DNA of 21,206 bases from a virus. The notes under the pieces were generated by a model. That model saw only the letters and a list, made by a program, of their open reading frames with translations. It did no database searches and had not been told where the DNA came from. Positions 9,537 through 19,728 of this stretch are shown in pieces; position 1 is the first letter of the stretch; each line of letters starts with the position of its first letter. Where the stretch lies: the IMG/VR virus record IMGVR_UViG_3300030106_004651, positions 1,815-23,020 of that record. One strand, written 5' to 3'. Position numbers and translations under genes: made by a program.

Positions 9537-9539
9537 TAG

Positions 9540-9612
9540 TGGAGCTGACAGGATTCGAACCTGCGACCCCCACAGTGCAAGTGTGGTGCTCTCCCAACTG
9601 AGCTACAGCCCC
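9540..9612 (-). tRNA. tRNA-Ala (anticodon UGC)
   Basis: A 73-nt cloverleaf on the minus strand. The acceptor stem GGGGCTG/CAGCTCC contains the G3-U70 wobble pair that alanyl-tRNA synthetase reads. The D-arm is GCTC/GAGC, the anticodon stem CCACA/TGTGG encloses the loop CTTGCAC (anticodon TGC), and the T-arm is GCAGG/CCTGT with loop TTCGAAT. The discriminator base is A. The 3' CCA is not encoded (the next bases are CTA), so CCA addition would rely on the host nucleotidyltransferase. It lies 5 nt downstream of the gp55 gene and probably shares its transcript. Confidence 0.96.
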
Positions 9613-11415: not shown

Positions 11416-12600
11416 CTATTCAAAAAATGAGTGTTGTTTGACCTGAGTGTCTTTTCTGAAGTTACTCATCTTTGTGTAAAGTTGTTTATATTTTTCAAAT
11501 ACTTTTGTTGGTGAGTCATTCTTGACCATCTCATCAAGTGATTTCAAAAGATTATACATATCAGTTGATAGAACTTGAGTCAATATATGGTCATGACTAT
11601 GTACATAATACTCTGCTTTATCTATTGCTTCTTTGAATACCATGAAGTTGTGTAATCTCATTGCAGTTGTACATTGACTTTTCCACTCTATGGTGTCTTC
11701 CCAAGTAAGAGCTTCTCTGAGATATTCTCTATCGAACTCTGTGGAAACTGGTAGATATTTAAACACTTGGTCTTTAAAGGTATCATCATGTTTAGGAATA
11801 TTTATAGATTGAAAAGATGCTTTCTTGAAATTGTAATCCAAGTAGTAACCACCAAAAACCACAGACCTATCAGGTGATGAACTGTCTGTTGTTACGATTA
11901 CATCAGAACCTACTTCGCTTAATGACTTTTGTAATTGATTAAGTAGTAGGAAATCAGACACCTTAGATATACCCAAGATATGAAAATATTTATTTGTCTT
12001 TTTTAGATGTTCCTTACCATTGAGTAGAGATAGAACACCTGACATGAAAGCATATATGTTACGACCACCACCACCGACAGCCCAACCTTGAAACGGAAAC
12101 TGTTGTACTTGGTCGTACCAATGTTGATACTCAATTTCATTAGTACCTTGCACGACGTTTAGAAAGTCTACCTTACCGGTCTGTTTGTCTGCAAAGTACT
12201 TGAAGTTTTCTTTACTAATCTTAAGACACTCCTCATACATACCCTCGTATTTTATCTTTGGTGGTATATCAAGATTCATTGCAATATCTGAATTATTTTC
12301 CAACCAGATAAATACCTTTTCCAATAAAGACTTGTCCCACTTTAGAGCTCCTGATGCAATCTGAAACCCACCGGAATCACCCATGACAAGATTATCTTTT
12401 GTGAATCCATGTTCCCCATAGAGGTCATCATGTCTGAGAAAGTGTCCTGCAGATATCAAGAACTCTGTATGTCTATATTTCTCTGGAAAATCTTTGGAGT
12501 AAAATCTTGATGTAAGACCATTCTTTAATTTTAAATCTTTTCTCAATGCCTGACCAAAACCAGCAACAGAGAAAGATGGAAAGTATTTAAATTTACTCAT
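11416..12600 (-). CDS. dpdA: DpdA-type DNA guanine transglycosylase (TGT family)
   Basis: A 394-residue member of the tRNA-guanine transglycosylase superfamily, most like phage DpdA, which exchanges guanine in DNA for a 7-deazaguanine base such as preQ0. Visible TGT elements: GDSGGFQ with D75 (base-binding/catalytic Asp), NSDIAMNLDIPP with D111, the WAVGGGG loop (173-179, counterpart of the TGT GGLAVGE loop), HILGISK (207-213) and TTDSSSPDR with D239 as the likely nucleophile. The C-terminal CxCxxC-type zinc site of bacterial tRNA TGT was not seen, which fits a DNA-acting phage enzyme. It lies in one operon with folE, queC, queE and queD, which make its substrate, and overlaps the phosphoribosyltransferase gene by 4 nt. 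The DNA target is inferred from context. Confidence 0.88.
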   Translation of the reverse strand: MSKFKYFPSFSVAGFGQALRKDLKLKNGLTSRFYSKDFPEKYRHTEFLISAGHFLRHDDLYGEHGFTKDNLVMGDSGGFQIASGALKWDKSLLEKVFIWLENNSDIAMNLDIPPKIKYEGMYEECLKISKENFKYFADKQTGKVDFLNVVQGTNEIEYQHWYDQVQQFPFQGWAVGGGGRNIYAFMSGVLSLLNGKEHLKKTNKYFHILGISKVSDFLLLNQLQKSLSEVGSDVIVTTDSSSPDRSVVFGGYYLDYNFKKASFQSINIPKHDDTFKDQVFKYLPVSTEFDREYLREALTWEDTIEWKSQCTTAMRLHNFMVFKEAIDKAEYYVHSHDHILTQVLSTDMYNLLKSLDEMVKNDSPTKVFEKYKQLYTKMSNFRKDTQVKQHSFFE

Positions 12601-12998
12601 GTCAAGTAATCCTGTATTTCTTCACTATCATCTAACTCCCAGGGATAGACAATCCATTTATCACCCTTTTCGTGTATCCAATAATCCGGAACAACTATGG
12701 ATTGTTTGTGATAATGAAATGTACAAATTATATTGTGTTTATTTTGAAAATCTTTCAAGGTATTACCAGTATCTGCAATATCATCAACGACCAATATCTT
12801 TTTATCAGTTACTATTTTTCTATCGTAATAGTCCATTAGTAATGGTAAGTTTAATTTGTGGGATAATGACACTGCAATTGGTAAACCACCACGGGGTAAA
12901 CCGTACACTGCACCGACATCTAATTTATTCCGATTATACCAATTAGTAATAGAATTGATATAGACCTCGTATTGTTCCCAGTTTATAAATTCTTTCAT
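12597..12998 (-). CDS. phosphoribosyltransferase
   Basis: A 133-residue type I phosphoribosyltransferase. The PRPP-binding motif is at about 70-80 ([11 protein letters not shown]) and the N-terminal PRPP loop at about 31-38 (VYGLPRGG). These enzymes transfer ribose-5-phosphate from PRPP to a base, usually a purine. The protein is shorter than bacterial Hpt or Gpt (about 150-180 aa). The base specificity is not evident; guanine, hypoxanthine or xanthine are likely choices. It lies between folE and dpdA with 4-nt overlaps on both sides. DpdA releases free guanine as it inserts preQ0, so salvage of that guanine back to GMP, and thus to the GTP that FolE needs, would close a cycle; this is inference. 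Confidence 0.87.
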
Positions 12999-13624
12999 TT
13001 CAAATCCCTTATAAAGTTATAAAATTCTTCCCTTGCTCTATCGGAGTTTTTGAAAGCGTCACTTAGTTTTGCAGTTTTCATAGTTGCATCATGTTTGACA
13101 CCACGAACACAAGCACACATATGATTTGCCTCTACCATCACACCTACACCCAAATTATTCTCAGTAACTCTCTCGATGTGTTTGTGTATCTGCATTGTGA
13201 GATTCTCTTGTACTTGTGGTCTACGAGAGTAGAATTCAACAATTCTGTTCAGTTTACTCAGACCAATTATCTTACCGTCCATACTGGGTAGATAAGCAAC
13301 ATGAGCTTGACCTATGAATGGAAGATGATGATGTGAACACATTGAATGTACCTTGATATTACCTTGAAAAATAATTCCATCATACTTGTCAACATTATCA
13401 AAAGCTGTAATCTTAGGGGCCTCATTATAACATCCAGCAGCAAGGTCATTGACAAATGATTTCGCAACCCTCATCGGTGTATCGGAACTATTGGGGTCAT
13501 TTCTCCAATCTATGTTTAGAGCATCCATATAATGACCATAGTGGACAGCAGCTGCTTCAATCATCTTTTGTTTTTCTTCTTCACTTAATGGTCTGTTACC
13601 ATTTGCATATTTCAATTTACTCAT
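12995..13624 (-). CDS. folE: GTP cyclohydrolase I
   Basis: A 209-residue FolE that converts GTP to dihydroneopterin triphosphate, the first step to preQ0. Zinc ligands and active-site residues are visible: MCSHHHLPF with C96, H99 and H100, and HMCACVRGV with C170. The core [20 protein letters not shown] (117-136) and QENLTMQI segments are standard for the family, and length is close to bacterial FolE (about 220 aa). It overlaps queC by 4 nt upstream and the phosphoribosyltransferase by 4 nt downstream. In this setting it feeds QueD and the deazaguanine route rather than folate, since no other folate gene is present here. Confidence 0.97.
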
Positions 13625-14340
13625 TTACTATCCTTATATTTTGTGACATCTTTAATGTTTGCTTTTTGGAATGCTAGAATCCTATCTTTACATGCCCCAC
13701 ATTTACCACAACCATCCCCATTATAACAAGATATAGAATTTTCGAAAATATATTCAAAATTTAAATTTAATGATTTACATATTTCATGAGATTCTTTTAT
13801 TATATTGAATTTCTTTTTATCTACATACGGTAGGTAAAGATTTATATTCTCAGTATTGACATTACCTACCTTGAACGCATCTTCTAATTTTTCATAAAAC
13901 TCTGGTGTACAATCAGGTGGTATAATATTACCATCTCCAGCATGTACACCTAAAGAAACATCCACTCTAGTATTTGACTCTTTTGCTATAGATACTGCGA
14001 ACCCATAAAGAACAGATGAGAAGATAGCATTTCTATTTGGAACAAAATTCATCTTCATCTTTTTCTCATCTGTTTTACCCGTGGGTACATCAACATCAGA
14101 GCTCGTCAATGAAGAATTAAACGAACCAAATACGGATGACAAATCAACTCTTTGATTCGGTATTTTATATCCCTCGTACTCTAGATAATTTAAGATACGA
14201 GCTAATCCATCGAGTTCGACTTTATTCTTTTGTCCATAATAATAACTTATTGTATGGATGTCATAACCTTTCTCAATAAGATGTAGTAACAAAGCTGTTG
14301 AGTCTAAACCACCACTAAGACTTAGAATTGATTTATTCAT
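13621..14340 (-). CDS. queC: 7-cyano-7-deazaguanine (preQ0) synthase
   Basis: A 239-residue QueC, the ATP-dependent enzyme that turns 7-carboxy-7-deazaguanine into preQ0. The PP-loop SGGLDST is at 9-15, and the C-terminal zinc site has four cysteines C205, C211, C214 and C217 ([13 protein letters not shown]). The segment [13 protein letters not shown] (about 92-104) is the standard QueC nucleotide/substrate region. Length matches bacterial QueC (about 230 aa). No glutamine amidotransferase domain is fused to it, so this is plain QueC, not the Gat-QueC of phages that make archaeosine-type DNA. Its start codon overlaps the stop of the preceding gene by one base. Confidence 0.97.
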
Positions 14341-14690
14341 TATTCTCCAATCAAATCTTTTAATTTTACTAAAAATCCCATTGAGGTATTACTATCCCCA
14401 CCGGGTACTCGTCGAGGTTTCAATTTGGTTATCTTTTCTTTTAATCTATCCACACTTATTGTAAAACACTCGTCATCATGAACAAAATAAGTCCAATAGT
14501 CTGCCTGTGTTGTCCTTATACCTGATGGTTTATTCCTTGATTCATATTCGATATAAACATTACCAGTCTGTCTGGTTTTTCTATCATATTTTACCTCAAT
14601 GGTGGATTCTGAGAGCATTTTGTGAAATTTAGTCTCACCTTTTAATATACCCTCTTTCAAATCATATTTAAAATCCGAGTTATATTCCAT
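14340..14690 (-). CDS. putative PD-(D/E)XK nuclease-like protein, 116 aa
   Basis: A 116-residue protein with a block resembling the nuclease core of a small phage-borne PD-(D/E)XK family: FKYDLKEG with D10, STIEVKYDRK with E32-V-K34, then TGNVYIEYESR (42-52), PSGIRTTQADYW and a hydrophobic strand. In this family the ExK pair and upstream acid bind metal. The protein is short and lacks an obvious extra DNA-binding domain. It overlaps queC by one base downstream and the small membrane protein by 11 nt upstream, so it is translated within the preQ0 operon. Nuclease activity is inferred from motif layout only; it could be an inactive relative or a DNA repair factor. Confidence 0.6.
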   Translation of the reverse strand: MEYNSDFKYDLKEGILKGETKFHKMLSESTIEVKYDRKTRQTGNVYIEYESRNKPSGIRTTQADYWTYFVHDDECFTISVDRLKEKITKLKPRRVPGGDSNTSMGFLVKLKDLIGE

Positions 14691-14916
14691 TTTTATTCCA
14701 ATTCAAATAACCGTAAACATTCAATCCCATAAGAACTACTGCTAGTAGGACTTGTGGGTTAGCATTTATCTTTACCGAGTAAACCAACATAAATAAGTTA
14801 CCGAGAAACCAAACTATCCAGGATAAATCAAGTTTCTTTGCGTTTAAGTAATATCCGAACAGTATACAAACTGTCCCTAACCATCCTATTATATCAAACA
14901 CCACGAATGTCTCCAT
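14680..14916 (-). CDS. small multi-pass membrane protein, 78 aa
   Basis: A 78-residue hydrophobic protein with about three predicted membrane spans: DIIGWLGTVCILFGYYLNA, LSWIVWFLGNLFMLVYSV and PQVLLAVVLMGLNVYGYLNW. The layout resembles short PnuC/SemiSWEET-like or CBU_0592-like small membrane proteins, but the family is not certain. Its start overlaps the end of queE by 23 nt. The ATG at 14916 has no good ribosome site; a GTG at 14904 (giving 74 aa) is preceded by GGAG with suitable spacing and may be the true start. A transport role for a nucleobase, nicotinamide riboside or queuine-like precursor is possible from its setting but speculative. Confidence 0.7.
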   Translation of the reverse strand: METFVVFDIIGWLGTVCILFGYYLNAKKLDLSWIVWFLGNLFMLVYSVKINANPQVLLAVVLMGLNVYGYLNWNKNGI

Positions 14917-15643
14917 ATGCTATTATGTGTAAACGGTCAGAATAATTATAACCTTGTTTTTGACAAATATCCATTAACCAAACTCTTCTTTCTTTTAATT
15001 GTTCCGGAGTAAGTCCTTCGGGCATCAACCAAACTTTATTATTAGGTATACCCAATTCATCCTGTATATAATCCAATTCCTGTAAATCGTTCCAACTTGA
15101 TATTACTGGTTTTAGTTGATAATCCGGATGATTATAAATGAGCTGCTCCATTGCTTCATAGTTACATCTCCACTTTTCATGTAACCGTTTATCTTTTTCT
15201 GTGACCTCACGATTTGCATAATCCATCCATGTACCGGGTTTAGGTGTTGAGTTCGAGAGTTTAGGTGATAAAGATATACAATCAGCAACTGTCTGTACAA
15301 ACTCACTACCCTCGGTCTCAATTGTTATTATGTGGTTGTATTTTTTTCCAATGATACATAACTCTTGTAATAACTCTGCGTGTATGGTAGGGCCACCACC
15401 GGTAATCATTGTGTGTTTTACATTAGGTTTTTCCTCATAGAACTTAACAATATCATCTAATGTGAACTTACCCTTTTCCGGTTTCCAAGATGCATAAGGT
15501 GTATCACAAAAGGAATCAGCAAACTGACACCTTAGTCTACAGCCAGTAACTCTGATTAGAATATGTGGAATCCCTATATACTTACCCTCTCCTTGTAGAC
15601 AGGTATACAGTTCTCCAATTGGTTGTAACTTTTGGTAATTCAC
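14894..15643 (-). CDS. queE: 7-carboxy-7-deazaguanine synthase (radical SAM)
   Basis: A 249-residue QueE that rearranges 6-carboxytetrahydropterin to 7-carboxy-7-deazaguanine. The N-terminus has the family's ELYTCLQGEG (11-20), IPHILIRVTGC (25-35) and a [4Fe-4S] cluster motif C35-x3-C39-x6-C46 followed by DTPYA. The usual radical-SAM spacing is Cx3Cx2C, so there is a four-residue insertion before the last cysteine. The SAM-binding motif reads TGGGPT instead of TGGEP. The start is a GTG at 15643 without a ribosome site, but a sigma70 promoter lies directly upstream, suggesting a leaderless message. The protein N-terminus fits the family length, so a later start is unlikely. The 3' end overlaps the membrane-protein gene. 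Confidence 0.94.
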   Translation of the reverse strand: MNYQKLQPIGELYTCLQGEGKYIGIPHILIRVTGCRLRCQFADSFCDTPYASWKPEKGKFTLDDIVKFYEEKPNVKHTMITGGGPTIHAELLQELCIIGKKYNHIITIETEGSEFVQTVADCISLSPKLSNSTPKPGTWMDYANREVTEKDKRLHEKWRCNYEAMEQLIYNHPDYQLKPVISSWNDLQELDYIQDELGIPNNKVWLMPEGLTPEQLKERRVWLMDICQKQGYNYSDRLHIIAYGDIRGV

Positions 15644-15649
15644 GATAGT

Positions 15650-15678
15650 AATATACGACTTTTTTTAATCAATGTCAA
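15650..15678 (-). promoter_or_regulatory. sigma70-type promoter of queE
   Basis: On the minus strand, TTGACA (15678-15673) is followed after exactly 17 nt by TATATT (15655-15650), a perfect -35 and 5/6 -10 element. Transcription would begin near 15643, the first base of the queE GTG start codon. The promoter sits in the 46-nt gap after the ParB-like gene and would drive queE through dpdA with host polymerase, independent of the late sigma factor. Confidence 0.8.
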
Positions 15679-15689
15679 GCACTTTTTTT

Positions 15690-16928
15690 TTAATAAGTTT
15701 CAATTATACTTCCAAGTGAAGCTGGAATACAATGAACATTTTTAGTTTTTCTATCTAATTTAAGCTTACCTGCAAATTCCATTAGTTGGACTTTTTGTAA
15801 CTCTTTTATATCCATATTTGCTGAATGACCACCTACAGCCTTTTTCCACACATCGGATTTTAAAATACCGTATGCACAATAGAAATCCTCATAATCTGAT
15901 GTAAACCCTAATAACAAATAATAACCAGCTTTAGGTTTTCTTGTAGTAAATTTGAGTTTATTACCATCTTTTATTATACAAGTCTTAACCTCAATACTAC
16001 CATTTAAAAAAGGTATGTCTATATCTTCTAGCCTTTGTCTACTGTCTGCTTTTGCAATAGCTTTATTGATAGCGTCAAGTTTACCATACTTAAAATTAAT
16101 ACAATCAGTTATTGCATTAGTGAATATTTCATGAGCAAAACCACCTAAAACATTTTGTTGTATGTTATCAAAAATATTAATATCTTTACCATCTCTACCG
16201 TTAAAAGAAATATTTTCTATTTGAGACATGACATTACTAACAGCACTTGCAGCAAAAACAATATCTTGTTTAGTCAATAATTCATCAAGAACAGTCGATG
16301 TTTTTAATTTAGCGTTATTTGCGGCATTCTTCCTATCTTTTAACATAGCACTGTGAGCATAACCAGGTGACATAGCAGAGCCATTTGTCTTTAACACTTT
16401 GACAAATTTACTACGACCATAAGTTTCATCATTATATAGTTCACGAAGTTGAGAGTACATATTGAAACTCATTTGAACCGTAGGACAAATAATTTCTTTA
16501 ATAACTTTATCTGTACATCTTTGACCTTTAGTAGCTTCGTAAGATTCAGATGCAGTTTTAATTTGATTATACTGACGAGCAATATCGGATGGTCTAGTTT
16601 GATTTTCCGCCATCAATGACATCATGTTATCAAAACCTCGTTGTGGTTTATCTACTATGGAAAATTGAACAGGTATTGTATCATGACCTAATTCGATAGT
16701 TAATTTATAACGAGTATGACCTGACTTTATAGTACCATCTTTATATATAACAATCGGATTTTTTAAACCCTTTAATCTTATATTGTTCTTTAAAGCTTTA
16801 TAATAATCACTATCATTTTCACCATATAAAACAGGATTATCAGGGTCTGATTTAACTTTATCGATGTTCATTATTGCATCGACTCGTTCTGTATTTTTAG
16901 TTATAAGGGGGTGTGTAAATTTAGACAT
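15690..16928 (-). CDS. ParB-like N-domain protein with putative nuclease C-terminus
   Basis: A 412-residue protein. Residues about 20-95 form a ParB/sulfiredoxin-like domain: VKSDPDNPVLYGE, LKGLKNPIVIYKDGTIKSGH and the GHTRY box (G70-H71-T72-R73) in the place of the ParB box II / Srx GxHR nucleotide-binding motif. Residues about 295-365 resemble a PD-(D/E)XK core: acids D302 and D304, then GSIEVKT with E313-V-K315, followed by alternating hydrophobic strands (YYLLLGF, FYCAYGIL). The middle is helical and Lys/Asn-rich. The gene lies inside the preQ0/DpdA cluster between queD and queE, with a 115-nt leader and GGAG ribosome site. A ParB-like partner, DpdB, is needed for preQ0 insertion in bacterial dpd systems, so a DpdB-like role is possible; a nuclease selective for unmodified DNA is the alternative. 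Both are inference. Confidence 0.75.
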   Translation of the reverse strand: MSKFTHPLITKNTERVDAIMNIDKVKSDPDNPVLYGENDSDYYKALKNNIRLKGLKNPIVIYKDGTIKSGHTRYKLTIELGHDTIPVQFSIVDKPQRGFDNMMSLMAENQTRPSDIARQYNQIKTASESYEATKGQRCTDKVIKEIICPTVQMSFNMYSQLRELYNDETYGRSKFVKVLKTNGSAMSPGYAHSAMLKDRKNAANNAKLKTSTVLDELLTKQDIVFAASAVSNVMSQIENISFNGRDGKDINIFDNIQQNVLGGFAHEIFTNAITDCINFKYGKLDAINKAIAKADSRQRLEDIDIPFLNGSIEVKTCIIKDGNKLKFTTRKPKAGYYLLLGFTSDYEDFYCAYGILKSDVWKKAVGGHSANMDIKELQKVQLMEFAGKLKLDRKTKNVHCIPASLGSIIETY

Positions 16929-17043
16929 TGTAAGTCTCCTATGTTAGTTATTGGCGCCTGGTGTTGGGTTCGAGTTACCACAGACTTAAAGGCTGCCGTT
17001 ATTAATTGTTAATAAGTATATTAAAATATTTCAAAATATGCTT
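16929..17043 (-). promoter_or_regulatory. structured leader between queD and the ParB-like gene
   Basis: The largest non-coding gap inside the modification module (115 nt). It holds a perfect 7-bp inverted repeat TTATTAA-TTG-TTAATAA (16999-17015), then a relatively GC-rich stretch (about 16950-16998 on the plus strand) with GGCGCC and CAACACCAG-type self-pairing. In the message, AAGTCT in this stretch is complementary to AGACTT, which overlaps the GGAG ribosome site of the ParB-like gene, so the site could be hidden. No preQ1 riboswitch signature was seen. A convincing promoter was not identified. Confidence 0.45.
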
Positions 17044-17487
17044 TTATTTTTCAATATGATATTCTGCCATGTTGTCATTATGTTCCCAGCACTGAACCTT
17101 ATGAACCGACACCCTACCGTTGGTTTCTTTGTCCACAATATCCTGTAGGTAGAGTGCAACATACTCAGCAAACTTCTCACAACCCACACCGTTGGGTAGA
17201 ACTCTTAGGTCTATGATACCTCGGTCATCCATCTCTTTGAATAACTCTAACTCCGGGTCATCAGCAGCTATACAGGTGGTATGGTCAAACATATTTTTCA
17301 ACCACTCCTTGACACCGTTTCGTTTGAAGCATCCGAAGTCAATCACCCAACCATTTTCGTCGAGCTCACCCTCGAACCAAACCTTGAAACAAAATGCATA
17401 TCCGTGAATCTTATTACAATGAGAATCAGCTCTCCATTGTCTAAAAGCTGTGCTGTATCCGATGAATCGTTTATAACTTCTATTCAT
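17044..17487 (-). CDS. queD: 6-carboxytetrahydropterin synthase, divergent
   Basis: A 147-residue QueD-type protein (6-pyruvoyl-tetrahydropterin synthase fold) that would convert dihydroneopterin triphosphate to 6-carboxytetrahydropterin. Recognisable features are SHCNKIHGYAF with the catalytic-type C24, GWVIDFGCFK (46-55), MFDHTTC with D68-H69, and a C-terminal CWEHND with E135. Two zinc-ligand positions are altered relative to E. coli QueD: the first His (AAHR) is replaced within STAFRQW, and the HGH pair reads HGY (H28-G29-Y30). H23 lies nearby and could substitute. It is the first gene of the module in transcription order, 17 nt after the 3D-domain gene. Context with folE, queE and queC supports the call. 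Confidence 0.85.
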   Translation of the reverse strand: MNRSYKRFIGYSTAFRQWRADSHCNKIHGYAFCFKVWFEGELDENGWVIDFGCFKRNGVKEWLKNMFDHTTCIAADDPELELFKEMDDRGIIDLRVLPNGVGCEKFAEYVALYLQDIVDKETNGRVSVHKVQCWEHNDNMAEYHIEK

Positions 17488-18005: not shown

Positions 18006-18061
18006 TAATCTCTCCATCCTATATAAGTATTATTTATTATTTGTAAATTCATATTTTTTTG

Positions 18062-18478
18062 TGGAGCTGGGGGGAATCGAACCCCCGTCCAGTTTGTTTC
18101 TTCTAAAAAGTCATTCACAGCTTAGTTCAGTTTCAATAAGAAGTAACTGACAAACCACTTGTAACTTTACTCAGAGTTACCAACTGGTAGTTTCTTTAAT
18201 CTCTAACTTCAATCCTAACTAAAGAGATTGTGTCTAACTTTTTTTATGACCGAGTGTTAGACAACTCAGTAACTTAAGCAGCGTATGCGTAAGTTGGTTG
18301 GTCTTCAACTGAAGAAACCATAGGTGAGTAATCATACTCAGCTAGGTGCCAATCAATGACCAACCCTTCTAGCGATTGTTCGCCAATTAGGTTGTGTGAG
18401 TCTTTTGTAACGAGATATTGACTCAATCTCTGCTGCACTCTGTTATCAGATAACACCTGTCGATACCTTAACAGCCCC
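18062..18478 (-). ncRNA. ssrA: tmRNA (transfer-messenger RNA), phage-encoded
   Basis: A complete one-piece tmRNA of about 417 nt. The 5' end GGGGCTG pairs with CAGCTCC at the 3' end (G3-U wobble, the alanine identity element), followed by discriminator A. The 5' domain has the conserved ATCGACAGG and GAGTGCAGC segments. The T-arm is GGGGG-TTCGATT-CCCCC. Pseudoknot PK1 is explicit: GAGAT pairs with ATCTC and the enclosed TGAGTC with GACTCA. The tag frame opens about 12 nt later at position 95 of the RNA (E. coli: 90). After the tag stop come stable hairpins such as TGTCTAAC/GTTAGACA and AATCTCT/AGAGATT, in the place of PK2-PK4. The 3' CTAAGCTGTGAATGA stretch matches the conserved tmRNA end. 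The CCA is not encoded. tmRNA rescues stalled ribosomes by adding a degradation tag. Confidence 0.95.
18274..18384 (-). other. tmRNA tag reading frame, 36 codons
   Basis: The resume codon is inferred as GGC (Gly) at 18384-18382, preceded by TAATT in the place of E. coli TAGTC and 12 nt after pseudoknot PK1. The frame runs 36 codons to TAA at 18276-18274. The tag begins GEQSLEGL and ends PTYAYAA, the small hydrophobic end (cf. YALAA) recognised by ClpXP-type proteases. Known tags are mostly 8-35 residues, so this is at or above the usual upper length. A GCG-AAC-AAT-CGC frame starting one base earlier stops at once and was rejected. Confidence 0.78.
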
Positions 18479-18650: not shown

Positions 18651-19103
18651 TTAAATTTTTATCGTTGTTTTCAACTGACCAAATCCACCCTCGTAAGCTC
18701 CACCGACAACTATCTCATACTCCCCAGCTGGGATGTCAATAGTTCGTTCTGTTTTATATAATTTCCACACATAGGTAAAATCCCTATATCTACCATCAGG
18801 CCAAGGGTCTCTAGTAAACGGTTGCTCATGAACTAATCTATTGGAATTTACATGGTAAATCCAAAGTTTAGTATTGCTTGAATTCACTCTATATCTTATC
18901 TTAACAATATCTCCGTCATCACCGTTCCATTTCTCATGAGTATCCTTCCATGCCATCAACGGAAATATATTGAATGAATCCTCATTCACAATAAAATCCT
19001 CTTTGATAATCTCTTTGGGTTTTGTAAGATAGATAAGAGATAAAGTTATGAATATTAGGACTACGACTATTCTCTCGACTAATTCGGTATCCAATCTAAT
19101 CAT
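18651..19103 (-). CDS. membrane-anchored beta-rich protein, 150 aa, unknown
   Basis: A 150-residue protein with an N-terminal hydrophobic anchor (about residues 9-27, VERIVVVLIFITLSLIYL), then a segment rich in charged residues, and a C-terminal beta-sandwich pattern (IVKIRYRVNSSNTKLWIYHV; TIDIPAGEYEIVVGG; GQLKTTIKI) like the FlgD/Ig-type fold. It would be exported and anchored with its domain outside the cytoplasm. Its start overlaps the end of the peptide-deformylase gene by 8 nt, so it is translated with it. No enzyme motif was seen and I do not recognise the family. Confidence 0.75.
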   Translation of the reverse strand: MIRLDTELVERIVVVLIFITLSLIYLTKPKEIIKEDFIVNEDSFNIFPLMAWKDTHEKWNGDDGDIVKIRYRVNSSNTKLWIYHVNSNRLVHEQPFTRDPWPDGRYRDFTYVWKLYKTERTIDIPAGEYEIVVGGAYEGGFGQLKTTIKI

Positions 19104-19728
19104 TTATTGTCCATCCTTGTTTTAACAGGTTGTGTGCTTTTTTGTACTTCATAATCTTTACTGCTGAACCTTTCTTGATTGTAACTAGCTGATTACGACC
19201 AATTTTTTTCTCAGCTTGAATTGTTGTGTCTCGTTGTCTATCCATTATTCTCATTCCATTTAAATGGTCTATCTCGTGCTGGACACAGACTGCTTCAAGA
19301 GTTCTAAGTTCAGCATTTTGTTTAGTCTTGTCTTTTTCCCAACTACCTTTACTATCATCAGATATATTAGGAACCCCACTAAAATACCAATCACTTTCTG
19401 ATTGTTCAGTTGATATCAATACGTCTCGGAATCTTTTGGTTTGTACTCCTTTCCCAGGAAAAGATAAACAACCTTCATAAAAAGGTATCTCGTTGAATGC
19501 TTCAAGAATCTTAGGGTTGATAAGAACCAAAGGCTCAATGACATTAACCACGGCAACTTGTGCATCAATTCCCACTTGATTAGCTGCCAACCCAATACCG
19601 TCCCCTCTTTTGTTAAGTATTTGAAATAGTTCTTCTGCAATTTCCATTCCTTCTTCAACTGACACCTCTCTTAGTTTTTTTTGTATTAGGGTATTTTCTT
19701 CTTTGAAACAATTTATAACGTTTTTCAT
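19096..19728 (-). CDS. def: peptide deformylase
   Basis: A 210-residue Def that removes the N-formyl group from new proteins. All three motifs are intact: GIGLAANQ (44-51), EGCLSFPG with C87 (metal ligand), and QHEIDHLNG with H151, E152 and H155. Length is greater than E. coli Def (169 aa) because of an insertion of about 30 residues (roughly 109-140, containing WYFSGVPNISDDSKGSWEK) between motifs 2 and 3 and a C-terminal tail. Deformylases occur in several marine phages, where they may support rapid host or phage protein turnover. It overlaps the upstream gene by 4 nt (ATGA) and the downstream membrane protein by 8 nt. Confidence 0.96.
   Translation of the reverse strand: MKNVINCFKEENTLIQKKLREVSVEEGMEIAEELFQILNKRGDGIGLAANQVGIDAQVAVVNVIEPLVLINPKILEAFNEIPFYEGCLSFPGKGVQTKRFRDVLISTEQSESDWYFSGVPNISDDSKGSWEKDKTKQNAELRTLEAVCVQHEIDHLNGMRIMDRQRDTTIQAEKKIGRNQLVTIKKGSAVKIMKYKKAHNLLKQGWTIND

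Follow-up and report, generated by a model that had tools for sequence, protein, structure and literature searches.

Self-sparing phage nucleases and virus-encoded restriction-modification genes are already known in principle. During host-DNA degradation, EndoII and EndoIV of phage T4 attack unmodified DNA and spare the modified phage DNA, and Chlorella viruses encode restriction enzymes beside viral DNA modification. In the bacterial Dpd island (DpdA-DpdK), DpdA puts preQ0 in DNA, a ParB-like protein is present, and the mark reportedly guides restriction of unmarked invaders. GmrSD and BrxU unite a ParB-superfamily domain and a nuclease in one restriction effector, a layout also proposed for BREX-associated effectors (PMC12839542). 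Base modifications of phages, 7-deazaguanine among them, are commonly seen as shields against host restriction. One report describes ParBc proteins beside CmoX carboxymethylcytosine genes (PMC12783734).

The locus analysed here lies in a 21,206-nucleotide stretch (the window) of a viral IMG/VR record of 23,020 bases (IMGVR_UViG_3300030106_004651) and encodes a 412-aa protein with a ParB/Srx domain and a PD-(D/E)XK nuclease-like region. It shares a predicted preQ0-type modification and a ParB-like protein with bacterial Dpd islands; in contrast to these it is phage-borne, its ParB protein is unrelated to DpdB by profile and is fused to a PD-(D/E)XK-like domain, and the cargo is a single gene in a variable slot. 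It differs from GmrSD and BrxU by a GHTR box and a PD-(D/E)XK-like cutter in place of DGQxR and HNH and by a carrier phage with its own modification, whereas sister slots, like those systems, also hold ParB-like/HNH-like combinations. The T4 enzymes belong to unrelated families, work alongside hydroxymethylcytosine and are no exchangeable cargo of a modification operon, and the Chlorella virus genes come from a eukaryotic virus and are methyltransferase-based, with site-specific type II enzymes. The CmoX-associated ParBc proteins resemble the 412-aa protein in their ParB domain, unknown role and phage modification neighbourhood; the modification is different, and the accessible part of that report mentions no PD-(D/E)XK fusion (PMC12783734). 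A literature search that covered subscription papers in part turned up neither a swappable nuclease slot nor ParB-PD-(D/E)XK fusions in phage que/dpdA islands.

The ORF listing of the window shows 412 open codons at 15690-16928 (minus strand) with an ATG start and an AGGAG ribosome-binding site, which lies in the 115-bp spacer towards queD (16929-17043); scanning this spacer for tRNA or other RNA found none. The GC3 of the gene is low (0.169). It is flanked, all on the minus strand, by queD on the left (17044-17487; Pfam PTPS, 1e-18) and by queE with a GTG start on the right (14894-15643; PHROG_2076, 2.6e-42). Past queE the island continues on the same strand with a small PnuC-like gene, a PHROG_13596 gene, queC (13621-14340; Pfam QueC, 4.6e-42), folE for GTP cyclohydrolase I (12995-13624; Pfam, 5.7e-48), a phosphoribosyltransferase gene (12597-12998; Pfam, 6.1e-11; xanthine PRTase-like, 8.8e-8) and a gene for a DpdA-like DNA guanine transglycosylase (11416-12600; Pfam TGT, 1.2e-4; PADLOC DpdA, 6e-4; weak matches to TGT-domain phage proteins). 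DpdA was the sole Dpd protein matched in the PADLOC scans. Together these matches bear out the modification cluster that a sequence-only reading of the window had placed around a gene between queD and queE. The remaining genes suggest a contractile-tailed, T4-like phage, and the carrier appears to be a marine-type phage with altered guanine in its own DNA as a disguise.

The N-terminal ParB/Srx domain comprises residues 21-88 (16665-16868, minus strand). PHROG_620 (ParB-like) matches it at 4.4e-10 over about residues 20-88 and several further ParB PHROGs match as well; Pfam ParB_N reached E 0.039 and 14.5 bits, under the family cutoff of 26.3. A GxxR box, G70-H71-T72-R73 (about 16710-16721), follows the DG pair D64-G65 and aligns with five ParB proteins. 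Both the ParB/Srx-like domain and the position of the GHTR box at residues 70-73 had been predicted in the sequence-only reading and were confirmed. The rest of the protein gave no family match.

A ParB-anchored scan of IMG/VR identified full-length relatives of two kinds, L209 (403 aa) and L234/L236 (439 aa), the latter apparently representing one phage type. A profile of two relatives matches the 412-aa protein at 6e-12, collinearly over residues 19-364, with 27.7 bits for the N-terminal part, 8.6 bits for the C-terminal part and 43.6 bits over the full length. By itself, the C-terminal part is weak in the HMM comparison (E 0.26; outscored by one of 5,000 shuffles). The family has three known members, two of them on short contigs. 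No full-length homologue was found among annotated phages or plasmids, and pattern scans of IMG/VR and bacterial genomes with the whole protein or its C-terminus revealed no relatives; one of these scans (600 stretches matched) also missed the known L209 and L236, so that its negative result carries little weight. Matches to a coiled-coil-like protein of Salmonella phage VB_ST-SA173 without a ParB box (E 1e-3) and, for the C-terminal half, to a Tunturi_2 protein without ExK and a Streptococcus Javan129 DUF1642 protein adjoining a methyltransferase were judged to be due to chance.

Downstream of the gene, both relatives carry a glycosyltransferase-like gene, joined in L236 by a TET-associated glycosyltransferase (Pfam TAGT, 3.7e-15) and in L209 by an N6/N4 DNA methylase (N6_N4_Mtase, 1.2e-16). 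dpdA is absent from both contigs over the few kb available. With the que/dpdA island of the window, the protein stands in all three known settings with genes whose probable role is to modify the carrier's own DNA. The glycosyltransferases beside the relatives were also compared with those beside dpdA in other phages as a possible single family, and are not clearly related (E 0.1).

The C-terminal region, residues 200-412 (15693-16331, minus strand), resembles PD-(D/E)XK nucleases. An alignment of the 412-aa protein with L209 and L236, at about 21-23% identity, showed the GHTR box and the motif D302-x10-E313-V-K315 to be invariant; the putative catalytic codons lie at about 16023-16025 (D302), 15990-15992 (E313) and 15984-15986 (K315) on the minus strand. 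The PD-(D/E)XK motif proposed earlier is present, and two relatives conserve E313 and K315; the acid in the aligned position, however, is D302 and not D304. An AF2 model computed from this three-sequence alignment has low confidence (mean pLDDT 42); a single-sequence model (mean pLDDT 34) was set aside. The model contains a helix at residues 261-281, strands at 303-307, 310-319, 335-343 and 348-356 and a helix at 358-364, with D302 immediately preceding the first strand and E313 and K315 on the second. A Foldseek search of the PDB gave no significant match (best E 0.23). VIA-align, run over Foldseek's 1,000 best chains, filled its eight best rows entirely with type II restriction enzymes, over residues 199-412 of the pLDDT-42 model, with Z of 7.3 for SfiI and BglI, 6.0 and 5.5 for NaeI and 5.2-5.5 for EcoRV. 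Since chance can produce Z values below 8, the case is built on all eight top rows being of one kind and on the conserved motif. Lower rows contained DpnI, the homing enzyme I-Ssp6803I, PvuII and RecU, mixed with unrelated structures. The fold comparison suggested in the earlier reading thus brought restriction enzymes to the top of VIA-align and nothing significant in Foldseek, both with a low-confidence model. We conclude that the C-terminal half likely adopts a PD-(D/E)XK restriction-endonuclease fold and that the protein is likely a nuclease.

Scans with dpdA, queE and queD yielded 39 distinct dpdA relatives. The queD-queE junction could be resolved in 34 distinct loci that carry dpdA. queD and queE abut or lie less than 300 bp apart in 28 of these junctions, and extra genes are found in six. 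The gene for the 412-aa protein occupies one junction of the 34. The other cargoes are a 208-aa protein with a 502-aa helicase-like protein related to a ResIII-type helicase (L004), a weakly ParB-like 354-aa protein with a 213-aa HNH-like protein (L005/L035 and L009), a 551-aa GHKL-like ATPase (L012) and a 217-aa relative of the 213-aa protein (L043); in L006, whose contig does not reach queD, a 474-aa HNH protein (PADLOC REase_II, 1.7e-4) is accompanied by the end of a 217-like gene. The labels HNH-like (213/217 aa) and GHKL-like, and 'GID..DVK' below, denote motifs read by eye and not family matches, and several cargoes have no family match at all. Among loci with the gene set of the window and a queE at least 76% identical, six of eight resolved slots are filled, the two empty ones being those of L013 and L037. 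The junction between queD and queE serves as a cargo slot: most relatives have nothing in it, and the clade of the window fills it with unrelated, partly restriction-like genes.

The right-hand border of the cargo is a sigma70-like promoter, TTGACA-17-TATATT, directly upstream of queE (15647-15689, minus strand). The same promoter precedes queE both in empty slots (L013, L037) and in filled ones (the window, L012, L006). L005 and L006 share 95.4% identity across 7 kb beginning exactly at the queE start codon, and their upstream cargo differs; this near-identity with different cargo points to recent swapping. Elsewhere in the islands we found a ResIII helicase (L043, 6e-7) and an HNH_4 protein (L047, 5e-7). 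In five loci a 'GID..DVK' PD-(D/E)XK-like protein adjoins queE; such conserved proteins with 'GID..DVK(T/S)N' in other dpdA phages lie at L049:6747-7310, L036:2265-2825, L033:3435-4019, L072:5695-6279 and L076:6725-7363. More distant phages carry small GIY-YIG-like or HNH-like endonuclease genes in the queD-queE gap (L197:4422-4892, L181:5730-6110). A 284-aa ParB-like protein follows a sigma-like gene at L021:11640-12494 and shares homology (3e-7) with the 354-aa protein in the L005 slot.

We consider it somewhat more likely than not that the 412-aa protein is a self-sparing phage restriction nuclease with 7-deazaguanine as the self-mark. Its ParB/Srx domain may contact DNA, sense NTP or both, and would be linked through a helical middle part to the PD-(D/E)XK cutter with D302, E313 and K315. 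The phage FolE, QueD, QueE and QueC would make preQ0, with which the DpdA-like enzyme would replace guanine in the DNA of the phage; the nuclease would cut unmarked DNA, either the host chromosome or co-infecting rival phages. Both the selectivity for unmodified DNA and the target, host or rival, are inferred. The 412-aa protein would then be one of several interchangeable restriction-like cargoes of the queD-queE slot. The earlier reading had offered two roles, a partner of DpdA or a nuclease sparing modified phage DNA, and the latter, a predicted activity, fits better with the PD-(D/E)XK signature, the restriction-enzyme matches, the restriction-like genes in sister slots and the modification partners of the relatives. 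Counting against it are the pLDDT and Foldseek values, VIA-align scores in the range open to chance, the C-terminal HMM score, a family of three, the absence of dpdA from the short stretches of both relatives, the slot cargoes that match no family and the homing-like genes of outgroup phages in the same gap. Levels of 7-deazaguanine in phages vary widely, from 0.1% of G in nt-1 to 15% in 6E351A (PMC12028318); that the mark protects its carrier is therefore assumed, and a level as sparse as that of nt-1 would protect poorly. More tentatively, a constant 7-deazaguanine mark may be combined with an exchangeable weapon slot, and the ParB-PD-(D/E)XK architecture may be re-used with other marks such as glycosylated pyrimidines or methylation. 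If so, phages with hypermodified DNA would carry true swappable restriction systems, in which one mark shields against many unrelated nucleases.

The role as a DpdA partner would make the protein a ParB-like NTPase aiding preQ0 insertion. Some bacterial Dpd systems require DpdB, a ParB-like ATPase (PMC12839542), an ORF beside dpdA in mycobacteriophage CRB2 has been suggested as dpdB (PMC6392294), and the gene of the window does sit in a que/dpdA island. However, neither NCBIfam DpdB (NF041060) nor PADLOC DpdB matches the protein, NF041060 is without a match in its own record and in 43 related records, and the box reads GHTR and not DGQHR. Islands with dpdA and an empty slot are common, and the co-occurrence with dpdA expected by the earlier reading is not seen: the gene accompanies one and is absent from 38 of the 39 distinct dpdA relatives, many of whose records are fragments. 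We regard this role as very improbable. A ParB-like DNA-binding protein with a degenerate, inactive nuclease domain, regulating for instance modification or transcription from the queE promoter, is improbable to a lesser degree. ParBc proteins of unknown function accompany phage DNA carboxymethylation genes (PMC12783734), and the 284-aa ParB-like protein of L021 has no evident nuclease motif; against this stands the retention of the putative active-site D, E and K in relatives that are so divergent overall.

The remaining two alternatives accept a nuclease and differ in what it serves. In a modification-dependent, type IV-like enzyme such as GmrSD or BrxU, the ParB domain would sense a foreign modification in the DNA of a rival phage, glucosylated hydroxymethylcytosine for example, and the PD-(D/E)XK domain would cut that DNA. 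GmrSD-family enzymes join a ParB-like domain and a nuclease (PMC12839542), the phages of the relatives carry several modification types, and DpnI and NhoI, both acting on methylated DNA, gave weak VIA-align rows. The protein has GHTR in place of the GmrS-type DGQ(Q/H)R box and a PD-(D/E)XK-like nuclease with no HNH (HNH/DUF1524) match in Pfam or PHROGs, and its three known neighbourhoods share a probable modification of the carrier's own DNA. We regard this alternative as unlikely, though less so than the two above. Slightly less credit goes to a selfish, free-standing homing-type endonuclease in an intergenic site with its own spread as the sole role. The small GIY-YIG/HNH-type genes in the outgroup gap (L197, L181) keep this reading alive, the cargo borders fall exactly between genes, the low GC3 suggests recent arrival, and I-Ssp6803I is a precedent for a PD-(D/E)XK homing enzyme. 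Yet helicases, GHKL-like ATPases and multi-gene modules, which make up the other cargoes, are not of homing type, the relatives are located elsewhere in their genomes beside modification genes, and no LAGLIDADG, GIY-YIG or HNH homing domain was found in the protein with Pfam, PHROGs and NCBIfam.

Should the island carry exchangeable nucleases that spare the mark, as in the preferred self-sparing reading, the modification would also be the self-mark of an offensive system. The presence of restriction-like genes in phage modification islands would then have an explanation, and the islands would offer a set of uncharacterised nucleases with selectivity for unmodified DNA. For some of the functionally unassigned ParB-domain proteins encoded near DNA-modification genes of phages, the same reading suggests a role that can be tested.

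Some further features of the islands and the window were observed. The phosphoribosyltransferase beside dpdA (12597-12998, minus strand) is purine-type, xanthine PRTase-like, and the 116-aa PHROG_13596 protein (14340-14690, minus strand) reads like a small PD-(D/E)XK protein ('IEVKYD...'). Many relatives have a GT4-like glycosyltransferase directly upstream of dpdA and a second PTPS-like ORF (L066:8291-9286; also L033, L036, L043, L047, L049, L071, L072 and L075), which suggests glycosylated 7-deazaguanine in the DNA of these phages; L047 (9474-11270) further holds nucleotidyltransferase-, kinase-, HAD- and cupin-like genes. The window also contains a tRNA-Ala(tgc) gene (9539-9612, minus strand) adjoining a late-sigma-like gene, and a phage-encoded tmRNA (18059-18478, minus strand; Rfam, 96 bits) with the tag EYDYSPMVSSVEDQPTYAYAA, near which lies a gene named by eye as peptide deformylase-like (19096-19728).
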